A stretch of DNA of 64,000 bases. Source: Sulfuricystis thermophila. GTDB lineage: Bacteria > Pseudomonadota > Gammaproteobacteria > Burkholderiales > Rhodocyclaceae. Position 1 is the stretch's first letter, and each line of letters opens with the position of its first letter. The DNA is taken from NCBI RefSeq assembly GCF_004323595.1, contig NZ_AP019373.1, positions 1,488,001 through 1,552,000 of the forward strand, given 5' to 3'. Position numbers and translations under genes: made by a program. This document shows positions 11,287-25,449 of this stretch, in pieces. The notes below the pieces were generated by a model, which worked only from the letters and a program-made list of their open reading frames with translations, was not told the DNA's origin and did no database searches.

Positions 11287-12216
11287 TCACAGCGCCGCGG
11301 TCAGCTCCGGCACGGCCTGGAACAGATCGGCCACCAGCCCGTAGTCGGCCACCTGGAAGATCGGCGCGTCCGGATCCTTGTTGATCGCGACGATCACCTT
11401 GCTGTCCTTCATGCCGGCCAGATGCTGGATCGCGCCGGAAATGCCGATCGCGATGTAGAGCTGCGGCGCCACCACCTTGCCGGTCTGGCCGACCTGGTAG
11501 TCGTTCGGCACGAAGCCGGCGTCGACGGCGGCGCGTGAGGCGCCCAAGGCCGCGCCGAGCTTGTCGGCGAGCGGTTCGAGCAGCTTGTGGTAGTTCTCGC
11601 CGGAAGCCAGTCCGCGGCCACCGGAGACGATCACCTTGGCGGCGCCGAGCTCGGGCCGCGCCGACTTTGTCAGCTCGCGGCCGACCAGCTTGGAGAGCCC
11701 CAGATCGGGGCCGGCCGGGATGTTCTCGATGGCCGCGGCGCCCCCCTGCCCGACGGCGTCGAAGGCGGTGGTGCGCACGGTGATCACCTTCACCGGATCG
11801 GCGGATTTCACCGTCGCCAGCGCATTGCCGGCATAAATCGGCCGCACGAAGGTGTCAGGATTTTCGACAGCGCAGATCTCGGAAATCTGCGCCACGTCGA
11901 GCAATGCGGCGACGCGCGGCAGCAGGTTCTTGCCGAAGGTGGTCGCCGGCGCGAGGATGTGCGTGTAGCCGGCGGCATTGGCATGGATCAGCGCGGCGAG
12001 GTTCTCGGCGGTCTGTTCGGCGTAATGCGCGGCATCGGCGCATTTCACCTTCGCCACCCCCGCAAGCTGGGCGGCGGCCTGGGCAACGGCGGCGCAGCCG
12101 CTGCCGGCGACGAGGACATGGATCTCGCCGCCGATCTTCTGCGCGGCGGCGACGGTGTTGAGCGTAGCCGCCTTCAGCGCGGCGTTGTCGTGTTCGGCGA
12201 TGACGAGTATGGCCAT
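11287..12216 (-). CDS. etfA: Electron transfer flavoprotein alpha subunit
   Basis: FAD-binding subunit of the heterodimeric ETF that collects electrons from acyl-CoA and related dehydrogenases. The 309 residues show the N-terminal nucleotide-binding-like domain and the conserved C-terminal FAD domain, with [48 protein letters not shown] and [10 protein letters not shown]. The start lies 2 nt after the etfB stop. Order etfB-etfA is standard. Confidence 0.97.
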
Positions 12217-12218
12217 GA

Positions 12219-12980
12219 TCAGATCACCTTCGCTTCGTTCTTGAGTTTGGCGACGAGTTCGGCGACGTCGGCCACCTTGACGCCGGCCTGGCGCTTCGGC
12301 GGTTCGACGACTTTCAGCGTCGTCAGGCGCGGCGCGATGTCGACGCCGAGGTCGGTGGGCTTCATCACATCCAGCGGCTTCTTCTTCGCCTTCATGATGT
12401 TCGGCAGTGTCGCATAGCGCGGCTCGTTGAGGCGCAGGTCGGTGGTCACCACCGCCGGCAGCTTGAACGACAGCGTTTCCAGGCCGCCGTCGATCTCACG
12501 CGTCACCTGCGCGCGGCCGTCGGCGATCACCACCTTCGAGGCAAAGGTCGCCTGCGGCCAGCCCAAGAGCGCGGCGAGCATCTGGCCGGTCTGGTTGGCG
12601 TCGTCGTCGATCGCCTGCTTGCCGAGGATCACCAGCCCGGGCTGTTCCTTGTCGCAAACGGCCTTGAGCAACTTGGCGACCGCCAGCGACTGCAGCGCTT
12701 CGGCCTGCGCCGCATCGGTCTCGACGAGGATCGCCCGGTCGGCGCCGAGCGCCAGCGCGGTGCGTAGCTGTTCCTGGCAGACCGCCGCGCCGCAGGAAAC
12801 GGCGACCACTTCGCTGGCGATGCCCGCCTCTTTCATGCGCACGGCTTCTTCCACCGCGATTTCATCGAAGGGGTTGAGCGCCATCTTGACGCCGGCGAGT
12901 TCGACGCCGCTCTGATCGGCCTTGACGCGCACCTTGACGTTGTAATCGATCACCCGTTTGACGGGCACCAGAACTTTCAT
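12219..12980 (-). CDS. etfB: Electron transfer flavoprotein beta subunit
   Basis: AMP-binding subunit of ETF. The 253 residues begin [20 protein letters not shown] and include [16 protein letters not shown] and the conserved [28 protein letters not shown] signature, as well as [10 protein letters not shown]. The length is typical (about 250). It starts the etfBA-CbiM-like transcription unit. The 107-bp gap to uvrB contains one dispersed repeat copy and no clear promoter that I could fix. Confidence 0.97.
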
Positions 12981-13087
12981 GAAGGGCTCCTTGGAATCGG
13001 TTGCAGAGATTCTACGACCGCGAATCTAGCCTGCGGGAATCGCCGCCGTTGTCGCCGGCAAGACAATCACGAGAGGGTGCCGTCCCG

Positions 13088-15166
<2,079 letters not shown>

Positions 15167-16484: not shown

Positions 16485-16526
16485 GGGCGGTTAGCTCAGC
16501 GGTAGAGCACTGCCTTCACACGGCAG
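16485..16526 (+). pseudogene. 5' half of host tRNA-Val(CAC), split by integration
   Basis: Carries the acceptor 5' strand (GGGCGGT), D arm and a full anticodon arm CTGCC-TTCACAC-GGCAG (anticodon CAC), but no variable loop, T arm or acceptor 3' strand. These missing 33 nt are found at 25417-25449. Joining the two halves gives an intact 75-nt tRNA whose arms all pair. Confidence 0.9.
16513..16526 (+). other. attL core
   Basis: 14-nt direct repeat CCTTCACACGGCAG, identical to 25403-25416. It covers the 3' side of the anticodon stem and the loop, the usual crossover site of tRNA-targeting tyrosine recombinases. Together with element bases to 16530 it forms a perfect 9-bp palindromic stem AGCACTGCC/GGCAGTGCT. 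Confidence 0.85.
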
Positions 16527-16540
16527 TGCTAAATGGAAGT

Positions 16541-16615
16541 GGGCGGTTAACTCAGCGGTAGAGTGCCACCTTCACACGGTGGAAGTCACTGGTTCGATCC
16601 CAGTACCGCCCACCA
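16541..16615 (+). tRNA. tRNA-Val (anticodon CAC), element-borne, complete
   Basis: 75 nt including encoded CCA. Acceptor GGGCGGT/ACCGCCC, D arm CTCAGCGGTAGAG, anticodon stem CCACC/GGTGG with loop TTCACAC, T arm CTGGTTCGATCCCAG. Its anticodon stem differs from that of the split host gene (CTGCC/GGCAG), so it is a different allele brought by the element, not a duplication of the target. It lies 14 nt inside attL and should be expressed from the host tRNA promoter, replacing the destroyed gene. Confidence 0.95.
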
Positions 16616-16630
16616 CTTCCAAGGTTTCAG

Positions 16631-16648
16631 GGTTAGCATTCGCTAACC
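16631..16648 (+). terminator. Hairpin after tRNA-Val
   Basis: Perfect 7-bp stem GGTTAGC/GCTAACC with ATTC loop followed by TTT. It could terminate tRNA transcription ahead of the integrase gene. Confidence 0.5.
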
Positions 16649-16695
16649 TTTGGTAGCACGATAGTTTGGGGTTCATGCTTGGGGCAGGCATCTTT

Positions 16696-16706
16696 TGCAC
16701 AGTGCA
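16696..16706. promoter_or_regulatory. Palindrome before integrase gene
   Basis: TGCAC-A-GTGCA, a perfect dyad directly upstream of the AAGGAG ribosome-binding site of the integrase gene; a possible operator, inferred only from symmetry. Confidence 0.35.
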
Positions 16707-16721
16707 CAAGGAGCCTGAAGA

Positions 16722-17612
16722 ATGCGTCCCAAAATCGATCTGCGCCTGGCGATGGCGCATGTAACTGAACATATCGCCGCCGAAATGACCTTCGCCGAAT
16801 TGGTGAAGGCTTACTGCGCCGTGCAGTTCGACGGCGCGGATTTGCGTCTGCGCAAGTGGGTTGAGGCCTTCGGCCCCGAATCCGCGTGGTCGCTATCGAC
16901 CCGCCAGATCAGCCTCGCCGCCGAGGCGATGCTGCAATCCGGCCTCTACAAGGCCTCCACGATCAATCGCGACACCAGCACCCTCGGCACGGTCTTCAAG
17001 TGGGCCATCCGCCGCCACCTGGCCCCGGTCGGTTTCGTCTCGCCGACCATCGGCCTGCAGCGCTATGAAGAGGCGATCCGTCGCGTCGAGCTCAATGACG
17101 AAGAGGTTGCCAAGCTGATCGATGGCGCCAAGGCCTTCAAGGATAGGCGCTTCGCCGCCTTCGTGCGGCTGGTGATCGAAACCGGCGCGCGGCGCAGCGA
17201 GATCCTCAATCGCCGCTGGGCGGAAGTGGATCTCGACAAGCGCACCGTCGAAGTGCTCGACACCAAGACCGGCAAGCCGCGGATGCTGTTTTTCAGCGAA
17301 AGCACGGCCGCCTTGATGAAGCGCATCTGGCCCAAGCAACCGCCCGGCGAACTGCTGTTCGAGAGTACCCGCGTCAAGGGGCAGCCGATCAATTACCGCA
17401 ACCAGTGGGCGGCGCTGACAACATCCATCGGGCGCGCCGATCTGCATCTGCATGACCTGCGCCACCATCGCGCGGCCGAGTTGCTTAAGAGCGGCGCCAC
17501 CATTGCCGTCGCCGCCCAGGTACTCGGGCATTCCAGCCTGATTTTGCAGCGCCGCTACGGTCATCTTGAAACGAAAACCTTGCGCGCCGCGACGGAGGCA
17601 TCATGGAACTAA
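16722..17612 (+). CDS. int: Tyrosine recombinase/integrase of the satellite
   Basis: Site-specific recombinase expected to integrate and excise the element at tRNA-Val. The 296 residues have an N-terminal SAM-like core-binding domain (about 20-110) and a catalytic domain. Catalytic residues are visible as R157 in TGARRSEIL, H244-x-x-R247 in HDLRHHR, H270 in LGHSS, and the nucleophile Y279 in RRYGHL. It is short, without an obvious arm-binding domain. The ATG follows AAGGAG by 9 nt. Position next to attL is typical. The next small gene overlaps its end by 10 nt. Confidence 0.93.
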   Translation: MRPKIDLRLAMAHVTEHIAAEMTFAELVKAYCAVQFDGADLRLRKWVEAFGPESAWSLSTRQISLAAEAMLQSGLYKASTINRDTSTLGTVFKWAIRRHLAPVGFVSPTIGLQRYEEAIRRVELNDEEVAKLIDGAKAFKDRRFAAFVRLVIETGARRSEILNRRWAEVDLDKRTVEVLDTKTGKPRMLFFSESTAALMKRIWPKQPPGELLFESTRVKGQPINYRNQWAALTTSIGRADLHLHDLRHHRAAELLKSGATIAVAAQVLGHSSLILQRRYGHLETKTLRAATEASWN

Positions 17613-17821
17613 CCTTACGCGAACAAAGGCTGTTGGTTGCTTTCCGGGAACGCTCTGCAGGCACCCAAAAGGTCATTGAGGACGTTGCGGTTCATATGAT
17701 GGGACACAACCGCCGCGTGGCAGCAAAAAATGATTTGATCGCCCTCGATGCAGCGGCTACCAAGCGCAAGCTTGGTAGCCGTGCTTTGCCGTGTCAAGTA
17801 AGGGAGGCATCATGGCAATGA
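17603..17821 (+). CDS. Hypothetical satellite protein (72 aa)
   Basis: Not recognised. 72 residues, Arg/Ala-rich, with a helical N-terminal half (LTLREQRLLVAFRERSAGTQKVIEDVAVHM). Strong GGAGG ribosome-binding site in the same GGAGGCATCATGG context that precedes the next gene, and it overlaps both neighbours by 10 nt. This translational coupling argues that it is a real gene. It could be a small DNA-binding or excision protein, but no helix-turn-helix can be claimed. Confidence 0.6.
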   Translation: MELTLREQRLLVAFRERSAGTQKVIEDVAVHMMGHNRRVAAKNDLIALDAAATKRKLGSRALPCQVREASWQ

Positions 17822-18333
17822 CATTGTATGAAGCCAAAAAGATCGTCGGCGAAGGATCGGCAGAGGTCTATCTGCAGCGCTTTATCGAGAAAACCTTGAA
17901 AGCACATCATGCGGGACTGATCGATGGCGCGGCGCTAGCACCGGAAGCCGACGATGCGTGTATCGCGGCGGTTTGTCTCGCGATGGTGCTGGATGAGCCG
18001 GGCGTCCGGAAAGCGCTCAATCTCAAGCGCCTGCCGCGCGGTCGGGCGTTCGATCCCTGGGAATTGGCGGCGCGCTCTGGCATGCGCGCCATGCATACGG
18101 CTTTGCGATACCGCCTGGGCTTGATTGACCAGTCTGCCGCTCTGAACGAGCTGGCGAACGCGTGTGAGGATGTTTACGGCCGGCAGCCAAAGGACGACAA
18201 GACCATCGCCAGCATGTTGCAAGAACTGGTTGGCGAGGCTGACGCGGATATCGAGAGGGCTGGCGCCGGGGTACTGGTCGAGATCGAAGAAATCATGAAA
18301 CGTTGGACAAGGGGGCGGGAAAATGATCGATAA
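17812..18333 (+). CDS. Hypothetical satellite protein (173 aa)
   Basis: Not recognised. Start ATG 17812 was chosen because it sits 5 nt after AGGGAGG; an earlier in-frame start has no ribosome-binding site. The product MAMTLYEAKKIVGEGSAEVYLQ is predicted mostly alpha-helical, with an Ala/Leu-rich centre and an acidic C-terminal part (VGEADADIERAGAGVLVEIEEIM). No transmembrane segment or Cys/His cluster. It overlaps the upstream gene by 10 nt and the downstream gene by 11 nt. Confidence 0.65.
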   Translation: MAMTLYEAKKIVGEGSAEVYLQRFIEKTLKAHHAGLIDGAALAPEADDACIAAVCLAMVLDEPGVRKALNLKRLPRGRAFDPWELAARSGMRAMHTALRYRLGLIDQSAALNELANACEDVYGRQPKDDKTIASMLQELVGEADADIERAGAGVLVEIEEIMKRWTRGRENDR

Positions 18334-18568
18334 CTTCTTCGCCAAGATGAGCAAGCCGGAAATCCGCAAGCTAATCTTGGAGCAAATCGAAGGCCGACCC
18401 CTATGGCAAGGTTTGCTTGAAGAAAGCAGCTTCCGATTTGATCCGTTCACCGAGAAGGCAATCGAGGACTGTTTCAGGCGGATTCGCGCCCTCGCCCGCA
18501 ATGGCGAATTGATCCGAAAAAACACACCAACCGCCAGCAAAGGCGTGGTGCTGCAATTTCGGGCTTGA
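18323..18568 (+). CDS. Hypothetical satellite protein (81 aa)
   Basis: Not recognised. MIDNFFAKMSKPEIRKLILEQ begins a short helical protein. Spacing of hydrophobic residues and the C-terminal stretch RIRALARNGELIRKNTPTASKGVVLQF resemble the beta-wing of a small winged-helix protein, but this is only an impression. It overlaps the upstream gene by 11 nt. It is followed by a 150-bp gap with a GC-rich hairpin (GGCGGACTTCGGTCCGCC, about 18588-18606). Confidence 0.6.
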   Translation: MIDNFFAKMSKPEIRKLILEQIEGRPLWQGLLEESSFRFDPFTEKAIEDCFRRIRALARNGELIRKNTPTASKGVVLQFRA

Positions 18569-18663
18569 TCCGGACGGCCGGCGGACTTCGGTCCGCCGTG
18601 GCACTACCTAAGACAGAAAGTAATCGCCGGGCATTTTGGTTTTATTGATCCAAGCAGCTAACT

Positions 18664-18716
18664 AACCTCTCCTTCGCGCCTGCCCCAAGCGTGATCGCTC
18701 AAGTTAAGGAGAGGTT
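18664..18716 (+). promoter_or_regulatory. SD-sequestering hairpin, copy 1
   Basis: Perfect 11-bp stem AACCTCTCCTT (18664-18674) / AAGGAGAGGTT (18706-18716). The right arm is the Shine-Dalgarno of the ATG at 18719. The loop contains CTGCCCCAAG and a small AGCG-TGAT-CGCT stem. Homologous to the hairpin at 18787-18840. Confidence 0.7.
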
Positions 18717-18718
18717 CG

Positions 18719-18886
18719 ATGAAAAACTCGCAAGCAATAGACCGGCGAAATTCTTCCGGTAACAATTTCGCAGCACCAAAACTACTCTCTCCTTCACTTA
18801 AGCGTCTGCCCCAAGACATGTTCAACCAAGTGAAGGAGAGTTTTGATGGGAATTTTTCAAACAACAGGATGGATACCGGCTTCTGA
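18719..18886 (+). CDS. Small satellite ORF (55 aa)
   Basis: MKNSQAIDRRNSSGNNFAAP is the start of a 55-residue basic, Asn/Ser-rich peptide, not recognised. It has an ideal AAGGAGAGG ribosome-binding site that is buried in a perfect hairpin, and spacing identical to that of the next gene (18846). It overlaps the first 41 nt of that gene. It may be a real small protein or a leader peptide whose translation opens the second hairpin inside it. Confidence 0.45.
   Translation: MKNSQAIDRRNSSGNNFAAPKLLSPSLKRLPQDMFNQVKESFDGNFSNNRMDTGF
18745..18771 (+). repeat. 27-bp hairpin repeat, copy A
   Basis: Stem GCGAAATT/AATTTCGC around a CTTCCGGTAAC loop. It is 23/27 identical to 23070-23096 elsewhere in the element. 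Confidence 0.65.
18787..18840 (+). promoter_or_regulatory. SD-sequestering hairpin, copy 2
   Basis: Perfect 13-bp stem CTCTCCTTCACTT (18787-18799) / AAGTGAAGGAGAG (18828-18840). The right arm holds the Shine-Dalgarno AAGGAGAG for the ATG at 18846. The loop shares CTGCCCCAAG with copy 1. Confidence 0.75.
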
Positions 18887-19235
18887 AGCCTGGTTTAATT
18901 TCGTCCGCGATCACCCAGAGTTCGGCGTCAAGCCGACCGAAAGTTCCTGGATTCACTTCCAGCGCACCCATGCGAAAGCCCTGATCGATGCCGACGTAAT
19001 ACGCCGCATCGCCTGGCGCGGTCGCATGCTGGCAGATACATCGCGCTTCGATACGGCGACGTTCAATCTGCTGACGACTGGCAGCGTTGAAGGAAGGAAT
19101 CGAACCGGGAGCGCTGCCCCTAAGATCGATTACGAAGGGCAGGCAAAAACCTTGCACGAAGCGGGTGATGGCCTTCGGCAGTTATTGGGTGGCAAACAGC
19201 CCGCCGCTCAGACTGTGGAGCCAAGCCATGACTAA
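18846..19235 (+). CDS. Hypothetical satellite protein (129 aa)
   Basis: Not recognised. MGIFQTTGWIPASEAWFNFV begins a 129-residue mixed protein, with a Trp-rich N terminus and WIHFQRTHAKALIDADVIRRIAWRGRML in the centre. It ends with a polar, probably disordered tail (KQPAAQTVEPSHD). ATG 18846 sits 6 nt from AAGGAGAG, which is part of a 13-bp hairpin. The next gene overlaps by 8 nt. Confidence 0.65.
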   Translation: MGIFQTTGWIPASEAWFNFVRDHPEFGVKPTESSWIHFQRTHAKALIDADVIRRIAWRGRMLADTSRFDTATFNLLTTGSVEGRNRTGSAAPKIDYEGQAKTLHEAGDGLRQLLGGKQPAAQTVEPSHD

Positions 19236-19446
19236 GCCCGCGAATGCGATCACCAAGCCGAAGAACCCCCCCGGCCTGGCACTGCGGCTGCTGCGTGACG
19301 TGTCTTTATCAGCGGCCGATTACGCTCAATGCGTAGTAGCTGGCGGCATCGCCTCAGTCCCTGCCCGGATCGCCAACGGGCGATTGGATGACGACCTCAA
19401 GGCGGCTTCCGAATTCCTCTCGAAAATCGACGGGGCGACATCATGA
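19228..19446 (+). CDS. Hypothetical satellite protein (72 aa)
   Basis: Not recognised. ATG 19228 has GGAG 9 nt upstream and overlaps the previous stop by 8 nt. The product MTKPANAITKPKNPPGLALR has a basic, Pro-rich N terminus and a helical C-terminal half (VSLSAADYAQCVVAGGIASVPARIANGRLDDDLKAASEFLSKI). The latter has the length and helix-turn-helix rhythm of small phage regulators, but no definite family can be named. Stop and next start overlap as ATGA. Confidence 0.55.
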   Translation: MTKPANAITKPKNPPGLALRLLRDVSLSAADYAQCVVAGGIASVPARIANGRLDDDLKAASEFLSKIDGATS

Positions 19447-19607
19447 GCAAGGGAAACCGCCGGCGCTTTTTTGTGGCTCTCGCGAATCGCAAACGCAATC
19501 CCGAATCGTGGTTCCCTGGGGTGCCGACCATGGCGGAAAAAGCGGGTAAGAACAGAGTGTGGACGAAACCGCCAAAACCCAAAGGTGGAAGGGGGCGCAA
19601 TGTCTGA
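19443..19607 (+). CDS. Small basic satellite protein (54 aa)
   Basis: MSKGNRRRFFVALANRKRNP begins a 54-residue protein that is very rich in Lys and Arg (about one third of residues) and ends GGRGRNV. It is joined by ATGA to the gene before and overlaps the primase start by 8 nt. A nucleic-acid-binding role is suggested by charge and by coupling to primase, but there is no motif. The length is too short for most gene finders. Confidence 0.5.
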   Translation: MSKGNRRRFFVALANRKRNPESWFPGVPTMAEKAGKNRVWTKPPKPKGGRGRNV

Positions 19608-21972
19608 TCTCGGCATCCCGGAGGCATTGCGCGCCCGCCGCCAGTGGTTGATCTGGAAGCTTGAAGAGAAGCCGGGCGCGAAGAAGCCAGCGAAGATGCC
19701 CTACTACGCGAATGGCAAGCGACGCACGGGGCAGCAAGGATCGGCGGCGGATCGCGCGGCGCTGGTCGACTATGTGACTGCGCTGGCCGCCGTCGAGCAA
19801 CATCAAGCATCAGGCCTTGGCTTCGCCTTCCTGCCGGATGATGGCTTGATCGGCATCGACCTGGATAACAAGGTCGATGCGGAGACCGGCGAAATCTCGC
19901 CGTCCGCGCAGCGCATCATCGAGGCCTGCGCTTCCTATACCGAATGGTCGCCATCGGGTCGCGGCTTCCATATCTACGTCGCTGGCAGCACCCAAACCGC
20001 CAAGGACAACGGCAAGGGCATTGAGATGTTCTGCGGGCGGCAGTTCTTCACCGTGACCGGCAAGCACCTGACCGGCACGCCGGTCGATATCCGACCGATT
20101 GAACCCGATGTACTCGCGCGCCTGCATCAGGCCATCAAAGGCAGCAACCCTACCCCGACCGGCGAAATGCCGGTCGATGCCAAGATCGCATCGGCGCTCG
20201 ATTATCTCTCTCCCGATTGCGGTTACGACGATTGGCTGCACGTCGGCATGGCGATCCATGCCGAGCTGGGGGAGTCGGGCTTTGCGCTGTGGAACAGATG
20301 GAGCGCCAAGTCGGGAAAGTATCCCGGTGAACGCGAGATGCGCGCCAAGTGGAAATCGTTCCGACCTGGTGCGATCACTGGCGCGACGCTCTACGGCTTG
20401 GCGCATGCGGCCGGCTGGCGCGTTGCGCGGCTGGTTGATACCAATACCCCGCCCACCCCGAAAAAATCGCCCAGCGGCGATTCTGGTGCAAGTGTTAACG
20501 AGGATGCCGTGTGGCCCGATCCGATTCAGCCGGGCAGCCGCACGACACCGGAAATTCCCGCCGCCATCCTGCCGGGGATTTTTGGCGAGCACGCGGCGGC
20601 CGTGGCGCAATCAACGCAGACGCCCCCTGCCCTGGCGACGCTGTTCACCATCAGCGTGCTGGGGTGCGTCCTGCATGGGCGGTTCGAAGTCTCGCCCTTC
20701 GACGACGACTATCGTGAATCGTTGGCGATCTGGACGAATACCTGCTATCCCGTGGGCGGCCGCAAAACCGCCGTTTTTGCGGCCTGCTGCGCCCCGCTGG
20801 TCCGTTTCGAAAAGCTCGCCGGAGATCGCGCTCGACCGGAGATTTATCGCCGCTTTGCCGCGCGAGAAGTCGCCACGAAGCGAATCGAGAAACTGAGGCA
20901 GGACGCCGCCCGCGAGGACAATGCCGAGCGGCGCGCGAAGATCGAGGACGAAATCCGCCGCACGCGCGAGGAGATGCCCGACGAGCTGAAGGCGCCGCGC
21001 ATCTTCACGACCAATGCCACTCCGGAGCGCTGCGAGAGCCTGTTGGCCGAGCAAGGCGGGAAGATCGGCATCCTATCCGACGAGTCGGATACCTTCCTGA
21101 ATCTTTCCGGCGCTCTGCGCGGCGGCGTGGCCAGTTTGGACGTGGTGCTGAAGGGGCACGCCGGCAGCGCGATCCGCGTGGATCGGCAAGGCCGGGAAGC
21201 GCATCTTGATCGGCCGTGTCTCTCCATGGGGTTGATCGTGCAACCGGAGTCATTTGCCGAGCTGGCCGCCGGTCGCCGCCTGCGCGCCACGGGCGTGCTG
21301 GCCCGCTACCTGTACGCCATCCCGAAAAGCAACATCGGTCTGCGCGATGTGCGGCAACGGTGCCCGATCCCGCAGCGCGTCGCCGACGACTATCAGGATG
21401 CCGTGTTGCGCCTTCTCGACGGCTATGAGGAGCGCGGGCGCGAGCCGCGCATCCTGCCCTTCACGGCCGCCGCGCTGGAACCCTGGCTGAGCTTTGCCGA
21501 GGGCGTGGAGCGTCACCAAGGGGAAGGCGGACGTTATGAGGCGATCTCCGACTGGACATCCAAGCTGCCCGGCCATGCCGCGCGCCTCGCCGCCTTGTTC
21601 CAGATTGCCGAGGAGGGACTCGACGCGGTTGAGATCGGTATCGAGGCCGTGAATCGTGCGCTCGACCTGTGTCGGCTGCTGGTGCCGCATGCCGAGGCGG
21701 CCTTCGCCATGTTGGGCAGCGACGATACCGATATCGATGCACTGGCCGTCCTGCGCTGGATCAAGGCAGGCAACCGGCAATACTTCACCCGGCGCGAGGC
21801 GCAACGGGCCATGCACGGCCGTTTCTCCAAGGTGGAGCGGCTGGAACGCGCGCTTGCCCACCTGCGCGACCTGTACGTCATCAGCGGCGAGAAAAAGGCG
21901 GCGACCGGCGGCCGTGCATCGGCGTACTACCTGGTCAATCCCAAGCTGCATGTGACAAAAGGTGCCGCATGA
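19600..21972 (+). CDS. Primase-polymerase with PriCT_2 and DUF3987 helicase-like domain
   Basis: Probable replication protein of the satellite. ATG 19600 gives 790 residues. Residues 1-170 look like an archaeo-eukaryotic primase-polymerase: GIDLDN (85-90, metal Asp pair), SPSGRGFHIY (117-126) and GRQFFTVTG (146-154). Residues about 195-270 match PriCT_2 (YDDWLHVGMAIHAELGESGF). From about 320 the DUF3987 region begins, with IWTNTCYPVGGRKTAVFAA as a degenerate P-loop. The C terminus (ALAHLRDLYVISGEKKAATG) resembles a winged-helix tail. Purines and spacing support the start; an upstream 43-codon extension is rejected because it overlaps a basic ORF in another frame. Confidence 0.85.
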   Translation: MSDLGIPEALRARRQWLIWKLEEKPGAKKPAKMPYYANGKRRTGQQGSAADRAALVDYVTALAAVEQHQASGLGFAFLPDDGLIGIDLDNKVDAETGEISPSAQRIIEACASYTEWSPSGRGFHIYVAGSTQTAKDNGKGIEMFCGRQFFTVTGKHLTGTPVDIRPIEPDVLARLHQAIKGSNPTPTGEMPVDAKIASALDYLSPDCGYDDWLHVGMAIHAELGESGFALWNRWSAKSGKYPGEREMRAKWKSFRPGAITGATLYGLAHAAGWRVARLVDTNTPPTPKKSPSGDSGASVNEDAVWPDPIQPGSRTTPEIPAAILPGIFGEHAAAVAQSTQTPPALATLFTISVLGCVLHGRFEVSPFDDDYRESLAIWTNTCYPVGGRKTAVFAACCAPLVRFEKLAGDRARPEIYRRFAAREVATKRIEKLRQDAAREDNAERRAKIEDEIRRTREEMPDELKAPRIFTTNATPERCESLLAEQGGKIGILSDESDTFLNLSGALRGGVASLDVVLKGHAGSAIRVDRQGREAHLDRPCLSMGLIVQPESFAELAAGRRLRATGVLARYLYAIPKSNIGLRDVRQRCPIPQRVADDYQDAVLRLLDGYEERGREPRILPFTAAALEPWLSFAEGVERHQGEGGRYEAISDWTSKLPGHAARLAALFQIAEEGLDAVEIGIEAVNRALDLCRLLVPHAEAAFAMLGSDDTDIDALAVLRWIKAGNRQYFTRREAQRAMHGRFSKVERLERALAHLRDLYVISGEKKAATGGRASAYYLVNPKLHVTKGAA

Positions 21973-22125
21973 GTTTCGTCACCAAAAGCCATTTGTCAGT
22001 AGACATGATTAACAGAGTTTCTTTTCTTTTAAAGACATATCCATCCATGCTCGGTGACAGTGACAGAAGTGCCAAAAGGTCGATTATGGCTTTTGTCGCT
22101 TTTGTCGCTTTTGTCACTGTCACCG
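21954..22125. other. Iteron-rich candidate replication origin
   Basis: Six copies of (A/C)CAAAAG(G/C) within 162 bp: direct at 21954, 21981 and 22071, and inverted as a head-to-tail triplet GCTTTTGTC at 22089, 22098 and 22107. A perfect 14-bp inverted repeat CGGTGACAGTGACA (22052-22065) / TGTCACTGTCACCG (22112-22125) encloses the triplet. Position immediately after a primase gene resembles satellite-phage origins. Confidence 0.5.
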
Positions 22126-22133
22126 GGGTGTAA
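21969..22133 (+). CDS. Possible small ORF (54 aa) over the iterons
   Basis: ATG overlaps the primase stop (ATGA). The product starts MSFVTKSHLSVDMINRVSF and ends with a hydrophobic AFVAFVAFVTVTGV made by the 9-bp iteron triplet. Because the DNA repeats dictate the C terminus, this may be non-coding origin DNA that happens to be open. Confidence 0.3.
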   Translation: MSFVTKSHLSVDMINRVSFLLKTYPSMLGDSDRSAKRSIMAFVAFVAFVTVTGV

Positions 22134-22166
22134 GTAGCACTGCCATTTGAATAGGAGGCAATCGAA

Positions 22167-22466
22167 ATGAACCTTGCATCAATCGGACTTGAAGTAACCA
22201 ATCCCGATCAAAGCGTCGAGATCGAGGGCAGCAGTTTCGGTGAGTTCTGTCTGTTCTTGCATGCGCACGCAAGCAATCTTGAAATGCTGGTGCGTGTGGT
22301 GGAGATGGAAAATCCAGACGGATCGAACACCCGCTTACTGTCCGCGCAGCAAGCCATGACCAACATGAGCAACGCAGTACGGAATGCCCTGCACGAGCAC
22401 CTGCGGCTAGCTCAGGAGCAAGGCCTGCGCTTCGCTATCAAGGATGGTCCGCGCACCGCACATTGA
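22167..22466 (+). CDS. Hypothetical satellite protein (99 aa)
   Basis: Not recognised. MNLASIGLEVTNPDQSVEIE begins a 99-residue protein. A beta-rich N-terminal part is followed by a helical C-terminal part (SAQQAMTNMSNAVRNALHEHLRLAQEQGLRF). AGGAGG ribosome-binding site 9 nt upstream of the ATG. It stands alone between the iteron region and the packaging genes, with 113 bp to the small terminase gene. Confidence 0.6.
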   Translation: MNLASIGLEVTNPDQSVEIEGSSFGEFCLFLHAHASNLEMLVRVVEMENPDGSNTRLLSAQQAMTNMSNAVRNALHEHLRLAQEQGLRFAIKDGPRTAH

Positions 22467-22579
22467 CTGGCCGTGAGTACAGCGGGTCCTTCCCAGCTAA
22501 ATCCCACACGGCGCGAAACGACCGCAGGAAATCGCCAGTTCTCTGAACTGTAAGAGCTTGACTGACAAAGGATATTGCC

Positions 22580-23068
22580 ATGAACATAGTTGGACAGCAG
22601 CAGATTGCCGACCTCTTTGCAGTAAGTCGCGAGACTATCGATAGTTGGCAGAAGGAAGGCATGCCCGTCGCCGTGCGCGGCGGGCCGGGAACGTCGAGCG
22701 AATACAACAGCCGCGCCTGTATCGACTGGCTGGTGGATCGCGAGTTGCGCAAGGCACAGGCCGTGCGGCCGCAAGACCGCCTGGCACGTGCGCAGGCCGA
22801 CAAGATCGAGATGGAGAACGCCGAGCGCCGCGGGATGCTGATTCCGGCCGATCAGCTTGAGCCAAAACTGAAGGCCGCCTTTGTCGCTGCGCGCGAGGCT
22901 TGGCTCGAGGCACCACAGCGCCTGGCGCGCGAACTGCCAGAAGATCTGCGTCTGCGCGAAGAGATGCTGCAGGCCGAGTTCGAGGCATTCCTGAATCGTC
23001 TGGCGGATTGGGCCTGCGCGGGTCCTGGTTACGACGAGGACGAGGCCGAAGCCAATAGGGGAAAGTAA
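22580..23068 (+). CDS. Nu1-like small terminase subunit / DNA-packaging recognition protein
   Basis: Probable DNA-recognition component of packaging. The 162 residues open with a winged-helix motif of the lambda gpNu1/MerR type (IADLFAVSRETIDSWQKEGMPVAVRGG). A coiled helical middle follows (PQDRLARAQADKIEMENAERRGMLIP), as in Nu1/DUF1441 proteins. The C terminus is acidic. No large terminase partner lies in the element, so it may redirect a helper phage's terminase to the satellite's packaging site. GC and strand match the rest of the element. Confidence 0.78.
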   Translation: MNIVGQQQIADLFAVSRETIDSWQKEGMPVAVRGGPGTSSEYNSRACIDWLVDRELRKAQAVRPQDRLARAQADKIEMENAERRGMLIPADQLEPKLKAAFVAAREAWLEAPQRLARELPEDLRLREEMLQAEFEAFLNRLADWACAGPGYDEDEAEANRGK

Positions 23069-23069
23069 T

Positions 23070-23096
23070 GCGAAATTATTCCGGTATAAGTTTCGC
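23070..23096 (+). repeat. 27-bp hairpin repeat, copy B
   Basis: GCGAAA/TTTCGC stem, 23/27 identical to 18745-18771. It is followed by a second stem (CAGTGC 23110-23115 / GCACTG 23139-23144, with CCCCT/AGGGG outside), recalling the arrangement at 18745-18840. Confidence 0.6.
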
Positions 23097-23316
23097 TTCC
23101 CTCCCCTTACAGTGCCGACATGCTTGAGCTTCCGTCGAGCACTGCTGAGTAGGGGTTCAATCGCTTCGCGCTTGCCCTGCCACCAGCGGTAATCCGGAAT
23201 GCGGGAGGCCTGCAGAGCGCGGGTTCTGGTCAAAGCGAAGGCCCATCCGAAGGGATGGATTTTCACGGCCGGTCCCGCGTTTTGCTTTTTTGGCCCGGTC
23301 ACATCAGGAGAATCAT
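23097..23316 (+). other. Structured leader before the capsid gene
   Basis: Non-coding stretch between small terminase and capsid genes with several stems: CCCCT..AGGGG (23103/23151), CCATCC-GAAG-GGATGG near 23243, and GCGGG/CCCGC (23219/23274) followed by T-rich sequence. It is a candidate for a packaging (cos/pac) site, terminator or translational control region; none can be proven from sequence. Confidence 0.35.
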
Positions 23317-25143
23317 ATGCCTGGCAATAGAGATCGCCGTGTCAGATCGATCGAGCTACGGGTTGCCGACATCGAGGGGGACCGTATCCCCTGCGTCGTC
23401 AGTTCCGAGGAGCCCGTTGATCGCGGTGACTATTTCGAGGTGCTGAGTCACAACCCGTCCGATATCGACCTGCGTCGCGCGCCGCTGCCGTTGATCGTTC
23501 AACACGATCACAGACAGCTTAACGTCGGCGTCGTCGAGGATCTGCGGGTTGAAGGCCGGAAGCTGCGCGGCATGGCCCGCTTCGGTTCCAGCGAACTGGC
23601 GCAGCAGCTCCTCCGCGACGTGAAAGACGGCATCGTCCGCAATCTTTCCGTCGGCTATCGAATCAATAAAGCACTTGAAGAGCTGGGCCGCGTGGTTCGT
23701 TTCAGTTGGCAGCCGCTTGAAGTCAGCGCGGTTTCCATTCCTGCCGACCCGCAGGCCGGCTTCTTTCGTTCCCTCACATTGGAAGGAAATCACATGAACA
23801 CCAATACCGAAAACGTCACCACCCCTGACCACCAGTCGCGCTCGCAGCAACGCGCCTCGCGCCGCTACGAATCGGAGATTCGCGAGTCGGTGCGGGAGAT
23901 CAACGCGCTGGCCGAGCAATTCAATATTTCCAGCCGCGACGTAAACAACTTCATCGACGACGCTGGCCTTGACGTTGCCGGATTCCGGGCCTTCGTCATG
24001 GACAAGATTAAGGATCGCGGTACCGGGAGCATCCGGTTTGACGAGTCTCCCGAACTGGGCATGACCGGCCGCGAGATCGAGCGCTACAGCGTCACGCGCG
24101 CACTCCGCGCCCTGACCGACCCGATGGCAAAGCGCGATGCTGGATTCGAAATCGAATGCAGCCGCGCCTATGCGCAGAAGATCGGCAAGGAACCCCAGGG
24201 GCTGTTCATTCCATTTGAAGCACTGCAGACGCGCGACCTGACGGTTGGCACGCCGTCCGATGGCGGCTACTTACGCCCGACAGATCACCTCGCCAATCAG
24301 TTCGTCGATTACCTGCGCAAGCGTTCTTTCACGGCGGCGCTGGGTGCAACGATGCTGTCCGGTCTGAATGGCAACGTTTCCATCCCGACGCAAACTGGAA
24401 CGAGCACAGGTTACTGGGTGACGGAAAACGGTGCTGTAACCGAATCTCAGCCCACCTTCGGCCAGATCAACCTGACGCCGAAAACCGTTGGCTCCTATAC
24501 CGATTACTCACGCAAGATGCTGTTGCAGGCCTCGCCCGAAATCGAAATGCTGGTGAGGCGCGACCTGGCCGGCATGATCGCGACGGAAATCGATCGTGCC
24601 GCGATCCACGGGTCCGGCACCAACAACCAGCCGACGGGCATCCTGAATACCTCGGGAGTTGGTTCGGTTGCTCTCGGCAGCAACGGCGGCGCACCTACAT
24701 GGGAAAGCATGCTGCAGCTCGAAGAAAGCATTGCTCTGGCCAATGCCGACATTCAAGGCATGGCGTTTATGACAAATGCCAAAGTGCGCCGCAAGCTCCA
24801 ATCAACGCTGAAAGTCACTGGCGATGCGGGCGGCGGCTGGGTTTGGGAGTCGATTGCCGCCCAGGAGCCAGGCTGGGGCCGGATCGGCGGCTATCGTGCG
24901 GTGAGCACAAACCAGGTGCCGAGCAACCTCACCAAGGGCACCAGCGTCGGCGTCTGCTCGGCGATTATCCTGGGCAACTGGAGCGATTTGCTGATTGGCA
25001 TGTGGGGCGGCCTTGATGTGCTCGCCGACCCCTACAGCGGCGGCACAGCCGGCATTCATCGCATCATCACCCTGCAGGATGTCGATGTTGCCCTACGCCG
25101 CCCGGTTAGCTTCGCCGCCATCCTGGATGCCCTGACGGCTTGA
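23317..25143 (+). CDS. Fused HK97-type prohead protease and major capsid protein
   Basis: 608-residue polyprotein. Residues 1-155 are an HK97-like prohead protease (U35/S78 type), with H63/H65 in VQHDHRQLNVG and Ser111 in NLSVGY as likely catalytic residues, ending PLEVSAVSIPADPQAGF. From about 165 there is a charged helical delta-like scaffold region. An HK97-fold capsid follows, with GGYLRPTDHLANQFVDYLRKRSF, TGYWVTENGAVTESQPTFGQI and AAIHGSGTNNQPTGIL. ATG 23317 has AGGAG upstream. An internal ATG at 23794 with GGAAGGA 6 nt upstream could yield the 449-residue capsid alone. Self-cleavage during assembly is inferred. Confidence 0.93.
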   Translation: MPGNRDRRVRSIELRVADIEGDRIPCVVSSEEPVDRGDYFEVLSHNPSDIDLRRAPLPLIVQHDHRQLNVGVVEDLRVEGRKLRGMARFGSSELAQQLLRDVKDGIVRNLSVGYRINKALEELGRVVRFSWQPLEVSAVSIPADPQAGFFRSLTLEGNHMNTNTENVTTPDHQSRSQQRASRRYESEIRESVREINALAEQFNISSRDVNNFIDDAGLDVAGFRAFVMDKIKDRGTGSIRFDESPELGMTGREIERYSVTRALRALTDPMAKRDAGFEIECSRAYAQKIGKEPQGLFIPFEALQTRDLTVGTPSDGGYLRPTDHLANQFVDYLRKRSFTAALGATMLSGLNGNVSIPTQTGTSTGYWVTENGAVTESQPTFGQINLTPKTVGSYTDYSRKMLLQASPEIEMLVRRDLAGMIATEIDRAAIHGSGTNNQPTGILNTSGVGSVALGSNGGAPTWESMLQLEESIALANADIQGMAFMTNAKVRRKLQSTLKVTGDAGGGWVWESIAAQEPGWGRIGGYRAVSTNQVPSNLTKGTSVGVCSAIILGNWSDLLIGMWGGLDVLADPYSGGTAGIHRIITLQDVDVALRRPVSFAAILDALTA

Positions 25144-25402
25144 TGAGCGAGCTGGCCAGGCGAGAGAGTTGCCCATAGCCTGGCTGGCTTTGCATCAACA
25201 CTAACTTGAGGTTGATGCAATTCTCCCATGGGAAACACCGGCCGCTTGATTGCGGGACGCCACTCCGGGCGCTGAGGAGGTTCAGCTCGACGTGGCACCC
25301 TCCCCTCCCCGTTTCAATTTTGCAGACGTATGCAACGGCTAATCGCGCTATTGCTTTGCGCTCCACTTGCGCTATACTTGCTCGGGCCTGTTTCAGTATA
25401 TA
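25144..25402. other. Right-end non-coding region of the element
   Basis: About 260 bp with no credible gene. It contains a perfect 10-bp hairpin TTGCATCAAC (25190-25199) / GTTGATGCAA (25211-25220), which may act as a terminator for the capsid gene or an integrase arm site, and an outward promoter near the end. The rest shows nothing I recognise. Confidence 0.6.
25351..25378 (+). promoter_or_regulatory. Outward promoter at the element's right end
   Basis: TTGCTT (25351-25356), 16-bp spacer, TATACT (25373-25378). In the integrated state it points into the orphan 3' half-tRNA. In the excised circle it would lie just upstream of attP, the element's tRNA-Val and int. Confidence 0.5.
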
Positions 25403-25416
25403 CCTTCACACGGCAG
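25403..25416 (+). other. attR core
   Basis: CCTTCACACGGCAG, identical to attL at 16513-16526. Confidence 0.85.
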
Positions 25417-25449
25417 GGGTCACTGGTTCGAACCCAGTACCGCCCACCA
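25417..25449 (+). pseudogene. 3' half of host tRNA-Val(CAC)
   Basis: Variable loop, T arm (CTGGTTCGAACCCAG) and acceptor 3' strand ACCGCCC plus ACCA. Together with 16485-16526 it restores a 75-nt tRNA-Val. Its original terminator follows. Confidence 0.9.

Follow-up and report, generated by a model that had tools for sequence, protein, structure and literature searches.

The window analysed here, a stretch of 64,000 nucleotides from Sulfuricystis thermophila (contig NZ_AP019373.1, positions 1,488,001 to 1,552,000), contains a compact element inserted in a host tRNA-Val(cac) gene. On balance this element reads as an integrated, helper-dependent phage satellite, one of a maintained family, whose own shell would be filled by the motor of a lambda-like helper phage through a helper portal and fitted with helper tails. 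All of its genes lie on the + strand (Table 1). A preliminary description of the sequence had listed an integrase, a primase, a Nu1-like terminase small subunit (TerS) and capsid/protease genes, all on one strand and with no recognisable repressor; searches of Pfam and PHROGs bear out each of these points. No repressor, AlpA/MerR or Stl/Rpr regulator was recognised in the element in these searches, and AlpA-like regulators are found in two relatives, L042 and, just below the cut-off, L031.

Table 1. Features of the element and its attachment (att) sites, in window positions
Feature	Position	Strand	Basis or remark
attL, 5' half of native host tRNA-Val(cac)	16485..16526	+	att core at its end, 16513-16526
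Complete element-borne tRNA-Val(cac)	16541..16615	+	ARAGORN
Tyrosine integrase	16722..17612	+	PF00589, E=4e-25
180-aa protein, integration/regulation module	17791..18333	+	41% identical homologue in L026/L029; no family
81-aa protein	18323..18568	+	open reading frame only; no family
130-aa protein	18843..19235	+	63-67% identity over 78-87 aa in L028/L029; no family
Primase-helicase, PriCT-2 + DUF3987	19600..21972	+	PriCT_2 2e-21, DUF3987 5e-85
27-nt inverted repeat and three CTTTTGTC direct repeats, candidate replication origin	22052..22125		repeat analysis
99-aa protein, predicted helical hairpin	22167..22466	+	nine homologues
Lambda-type cos: cosQ-like CGGGTCCTTCC, then cosN-like CACGGCGCGAAACGACCGCAGG	22482..22550	+	alignment with lambda cos and satellites
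Nu1-like TerS	22580..23068	+	PF07471 1.8e-12; phrog_57 1.2e-28
S78 prohead protease/delta-like region/HK97-fold major capsid fusion	23317..25143	+	phrog_617, PF05065
attR, 3' half of native tRNA-Val	25403..25449	+	att core 25403-25416

The capsid gene, which probably starts at the ATG at 23317, encodes a protease and a capsid protein in one polypeptide. Its capsid part matches PF05065 (8e-43) and its N-terminal part the S78 protease family (3e-4), while the phrog_617 profile, 'major head protein', covers the entire fusion (2e-131). Candidate catalytic residues H72, S120 and E144 (numbering from 23290) are conserved, and a helical, delta-like region lies between the protease and capsid parts. 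Judged by these three parts, the shell module looks complete; both a satellite-encoded capsid and a maturation protease, as expected of capsid-forming phage-inducible chromosomal islands (cf-PICIs), are present. An AlphaFold2 model of the capsid resembles phage capsids, the best match being that of R4C (8gta, Foldseek E 9e-21), with encapsulins also among the fold matches. By sequence, R4C is the sole relative in the PDB (E 3.5e-44); the capsid of the cf-PICI EcCI2, although in the PDB, was not matched.

The packaging genes and sites of the element consist of TerS and a cos site immediately upstream of it, the same place that the site occupies in most relatives. When the regions preceding TerS are aligned, the cosQ-like motif is followed at constant spacing by the cosN-like segment, and both align with the joined ends of lambda. 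In 11 of 13 satellites TerS is preceded, at a distance of 55-140 bp, by GGGTCCT, for which the expectation is 0.016 occurrences per 500 nt. The 11-mer cosQ pattern is present five times in the host genome, three of these being apparently chance matches in coding DNA, and because such chance copies occur, only its position and its conservation across elements make the motif convincing. The element has the cosQ-cosN layout of lambda, as a cos-packaging satellite should, and the anatomy of cos and TerS is in keeping with packaging from cos by the motor of a helper.

Genes for the rest of the packaging, portal and tail machinery were sought with profiles for TerS, the terminase large subunit (TerL), the head-tail joining protein (HTJ), portal and capsid, built from six annotated phages or phage-like regions with the same capsid. 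The window element matches those for TerS and capsid, and no TerL, portal, HTJ, Hc1 or Neck1 match was obtained with profiles from these phages, in agreement with the earlier claim that the large terminase and portal are missing. Among the relatives, TerL, HTJ and portal were matched in none, capsid in all and TerS in most; one (L042) has a weak Neck1 match. Contigs of phages with the same capsid do match the profiles of the missing genes where they are long enough, with very few exceptions. A full Pfam scan of 46 non-structural element proteins likewise returned no TerL, portal or lysis family. The portal and connectors of cf-PICIs are therefore missing and, of the two terminase subunits, only TerS is present, so that the gene content argues against an element that needs only the tails of its helper.

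The preliminary description placed the element at 16722-25143. The genes within those limits stand, but the att cores put the true bounds at ~16513-25416. The core, CCTTCACACGGCAG, is an exact 14-nt repeat. When the flanks are joined in silico they match, continuously across the junction, a single intact tRNA gene in the genus-mate G019, and since this empty site is matched without a break the inserted element is 8,890 bp long. It possesses its own integrase and a chromosomal att site, as does a PICI in the broad sense; the occupancy of the tRNA-Val site was compared within the genus and in two relatives. Homologues of the integrase that are 76% (G286) and 68% (G266) identical also adjoin tRNA-Val(cac); in no other sampled member of the genus was the integrase found at the cut-off used. 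The complete tRNA-Val carried by the element has an anticodon stem that differs in sequence yet pairs internally (CCACC/GGTGG), and a single base separates this tRNA from the native tRNA-Val found in another species of the genus (L145). It is possibly both a replacement for the disrupted host tRNA and a trace of a former host. The tRNA att sites, the lambda-type cos, this complete tRNA-Val, the iteron-like repeats and the 99-aa protein were not part of the preliminary description.

Searches with three capsids recovered 22 loci from bacterial genomes together with 80 from IMG/VR, the latter with a three-row alignment as query; a single capsid query found nothing in IMG/VR. The nearest relatives, from Thiobacillus, Hydrogenophilales, Burkholderiaceae, Rhodocyclales/Zoogloeaceae, Thauera and gammaproteobacteria, share the same plan, and more than a dozen, mostly in other proteobacteria, have the same limited gene set. 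They lie inside or beside different tRNA genes. From att to att they measure 8,888, 9,508, 8,936, 8,953, 9,085, 9,261 and 8,314 bp, so that, with the 8,890 bp found here, eight elements at different tRNA genes span 8314-9508 bp. The usual order is integrase, small genes, primase or helicase, cos, TerS, 99-aa protein, capsid, optional cargo and att; the window element departs from it in having the 99-aa gene ahead of cos and TerS. The draft genome of Hydrogenophilales bacterium 16-64-46 holds at least two different elements of the family (L040, L046, L047, L049), these being partial loci of which some are perhaps halves of one element.

Of the 20 satellite sequences in a 57-capsid tree, 18 form one clade (SH-aLRT 99) apart from the phage capsids. 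The remaining two, from Nitrosospira (L041) and Synechococcus (L043), fall among phages; both loci have the fused capsid with no TerL or portal nearby, and they may represent separate captures in which this plan arose independently. The capsid reading frames used are all free of internal stops, and the ratio of nonsynonymous to synonymous substitution (dN/dS) of 0.10-0.20 between close pairs indicates purifying selection. One further locus (L029:6057-14600) has the same integrase, tRNA-Val site and a cos-like motif together with a stand-alone 325-aa HK97 capsid. Because the same integrase is paired there with a different capsid, the capsid module appears exchangeable within the integrase family. 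Several relatives carry proteins related to tails: gpZ-type tail-completion proteins (L034:8594-9199, L039:8000-8620 and L042, and by PHROG L038:12022-12909) and shortened tape-measure-like proteins (L042 and L053:6878-8260), the tail-protein region of L042, gpZ-type/short tape-measure-like, lying at 12032-13848 of that locus. These relatives yielded no further tail genes, and the presence of such proteins suggests that the fitting of the helper tail is under selection.

Among the remaining genes, the three small proteins encoded between integrase and primase and the 99-aa protein have no family match in Pfam or PHROGs. The L028/L029 homologues of the 130-aa protein lie near the same integrase, and this protein is a candidate excision or regulatory factor. 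The primase probably starts at the ATG near 19600, which is favoured over the opening of the reading frame at 19471. The repeats that follow it have counterparts, iteron-like or inverted, downstream of the corresponding gene in most of the relatives inspected; they are suggestive of an origin, a weak indication by itself since 7-mer repeats in such number are common in the window. Conservation of the 99-aa protein extends across the satellite family, with its gene close to those for TerS and the capsid. Its AlphaFold2 model has helices at pLDDT about 87-96, and a fold search with this model gave no significant match. Elsewhere in the window, the motif GTGCCGTCC[CT]GCCAGCGCCGA is scattered at 815 (+), 25516 (+), 32511 (-), 15201 (-), 9133 (-) and 5026 (-), with ~20 further partial matches in the rest of the genome and in genus-mates, and may be REP-like or uptake-like.

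In the cycle proposed for the element, infection by, or induction of, a lambda-like helper with a Nu1/GpA terminase and a lambda-type portal would cause the element to excise. It would replicate from the origin beside its primase gene and make its own capsid and TerS, the latter guiding the large terminase of the helper to cos on the satellite DNA. Once cut there, this DNA would enter satellite-made shells through the helper portal, and the filled shells would receive helper tails. The narrow range of element length would be an imprint of the space in the shell, whether this is small and takes a single copy or full-size and takes an exact number of copies. The constant length fits the first case as well as the second, with about four copies to a full-size shell; the small capsid of the preliminary description is an inference from this constancy.

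Host genomes had been named as the place to look for helper prophages. The element's own genome does hold two related lambda-like prophages, L150 (~1.826-1.866 Mb) and L153 (~1.901-1.941 Mb). In both, a Nu1 TerS, a GpA TerL and a portal were found, and one of the two was confirmed to have, in addition, a gpE-type capsid, a decoration protein and tail proteins. Both have a similar cos-like site ~5 kb upstream of TerS. With matching classes of TerS, TerL and portal, these residents are plausible helpers. Their terminases were found via GpA_ATPase; with phrog_2, PF03354 and PF04860 no intact terminase or portal was detected in the host genome, and these profiles alone would have given the misleading impression of a genome with no helper. 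Comparison of element and prophage DNA yielded matches at chance level only, the short cosQ core excepted.

Several observations weigh against a helper-dependent satellite that packages in this way. cosB was not identified in the cos region of the element, and the position of cosN is set by alignment only. The cosN sequence of the two prophages differs from that of the satellite, and their capsid belongs to another family, the lambda gpE-type (phrog_29), so that the fit of their portal to the satellite shell is an assumption. Nor are satellite genomes enriched for GpA-terminase prophages: a GpA terminase was found in 3 of 17 other satellite-bearing genomes, many of the genomes in this count being incomplete metagenome-assembled genomes, whereas 27 of 151 genomes of the family have one over the cut-off. 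Without such enrichment, the satellites need not depend on resident prophages as helpers, and for most elements the helper may come from outside.

The alternative that deserves most attention, unlikely as we consider it, is redirection of the kind seen in SaPIbov5, in which the satellite capsid protein would co-assemble with that of the helper and force the formation of small heads. The SaPIbov5 protein Ccm has the capsid fold, enters small capsids in a cos-packaging system and still needs the helper capsid protein (PMC6893505); PmCI172 has a capsid homologue and yields small heads (PMC6092414); and a Vibrio PISP with capsid E, protease and TerS has been read as a case of redirection (PMC13230959). 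Here, however, the fusion includes a protease whose candidate catalytic residues are conserved, as well as a helical delta-like region, seemingly a self-sufficient shell module, and the capsid of the resident lambda-like prophages is of another family. Divergence of the capsid cannot by itself exclude redirection, since Ccm is only 23% identical to the helper capsid protein. It is quite improbable that the capsid has been co-opted away from DNA transfer, as an encapsulin-like compartment or for anti-phage interference. HK97-fold shells do include encapsulins, and the element might interfere with the assembly of phages, but a cos site and TerS in conserved position, together with a near-constant length, point to packaging.

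The preliminary description likened the element to cf-PICIs. Its satellite nature stands, as a helper terminase motor and helper tails fit the cos site and TerS, whereas the cf-PICI logic does not. A true or truncated cf-PICI is very improbable: the HK97-type capsid, integrase and primase, and the AlpA-like regulators of the two relatives, would agree with one, but TerL, portal, connectors and HNH, all encoded by cf-PICIs (PMC10690885), were not found here, the relatives also lack TerL and portal, and the PDB relative of the capsid by sequence is phage R4C rather than EcCI2. A decayed prophage stripped of its motor, portal and tail genes is more improbable still. Phage homologues of the capsid and TerS do have TerL, HTJ and portal genes in between. 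Decay is nevertheless strongly disfavoured because over a dozen related elements, in different hosts and at different tRNA genes, share this reduced gene set, with open capsid genes under purifying selection, near-constant length and a separate capsid clade. Longer homologous prophages had been named as the finding that would speak for decay; what comes closest to the element is a set of further minimal elements, and neither pseudogenes nor relatives with a full gene set at the same site were found.

If the element is such a satellite, it may belong to a widespread class that swaps the container only, with its own self-maturing shell, TerS and lambda-type cos, and that borrows portal, motor, neck and tail. 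We hold this wider proposal tentatively, at somewhat below even chances. Under it, the portal of a helper would have to function in a shell that is not its own, and gpZ or short tape-measure proteins would adapt the tail in some members. Such a class would be intermediate between capsid-redirecting PICIs and cf-PICIs, and would imply that satellites can hold stable positions between stealing everything and stealing only tails. The family, recognisable by a fused capsid, TerS, cos and a length of ~9 kb, lets the specificity between shell and foreign portal, and the relation of element length to shell size, be tested directly. Small 'capsid-only' contigs or islands in genomes and viral databases may likewise be functional satellites rather than prophage debris. 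No description of this satellite family was found in the open-access literature, subscription journals being outside the coverage; within the part of the literature covered, this agrees with the earlier suggestion that the family is undescribed in this host group.

Among known systems, cf-PICIs make everything but tails, including portal, connectors and both terminase subunits (PMC10690885). The element resembles them in its satellite-encoded HK97-type capsid and in a satellite capsid clade apart from phage capsids, and differs in having no TerL, portal or connectors; because portal and connectors are missing as well as TerL, its logic is not that of a cf-PICI. Phages ep3, PPpW-3, S-LBS1 and CRP-811 have a homologous protease-capsid fusion (35-39% identity), but within complete TerS-TerL-HTJ-portal-capsid-tail modules of 32-44 kb. 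Putative E. coli satellites (PMC10448857) have capsid genes, lack most cf-PICI genes and carry tape-measure proteins, as do some relatives; they differ in having a decoration protein and RepA_N replication, and no terminase genes or prohead protease. The closest logic is that of PICIs with a capsid homologue (SaPIbov5, PmCI172) and of the Vibrio PISP (PMC6092414, PMC6893505, PMC13230959). The PISP satellite-plasmid TG93 has only a capsid protein, head protease and small terminase (PMC13230959), although its capsid is of the PF03864 type and it is an 11.1 kb plasmid without integrase, confined to Vibrio. PmCI172/EcCICFT073, from Gram-negative hosts, and SaPIbov5 (Ccm) are, like the element, integrated, with an integrase, primase, cos and/or TerS and a capsid homologue, and likewise lack TerL, portal, tail and lysis genes (PMC6092414, PMC6893505). 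In contrast to these, the element combines an S78 protease-HK97 capsid fusion with a Nu1 TerS and cos, has no recognised AlpA, and belongs to a family of ~9 kb, against typically ~15 kb, found mostly in betaproteobacteria.

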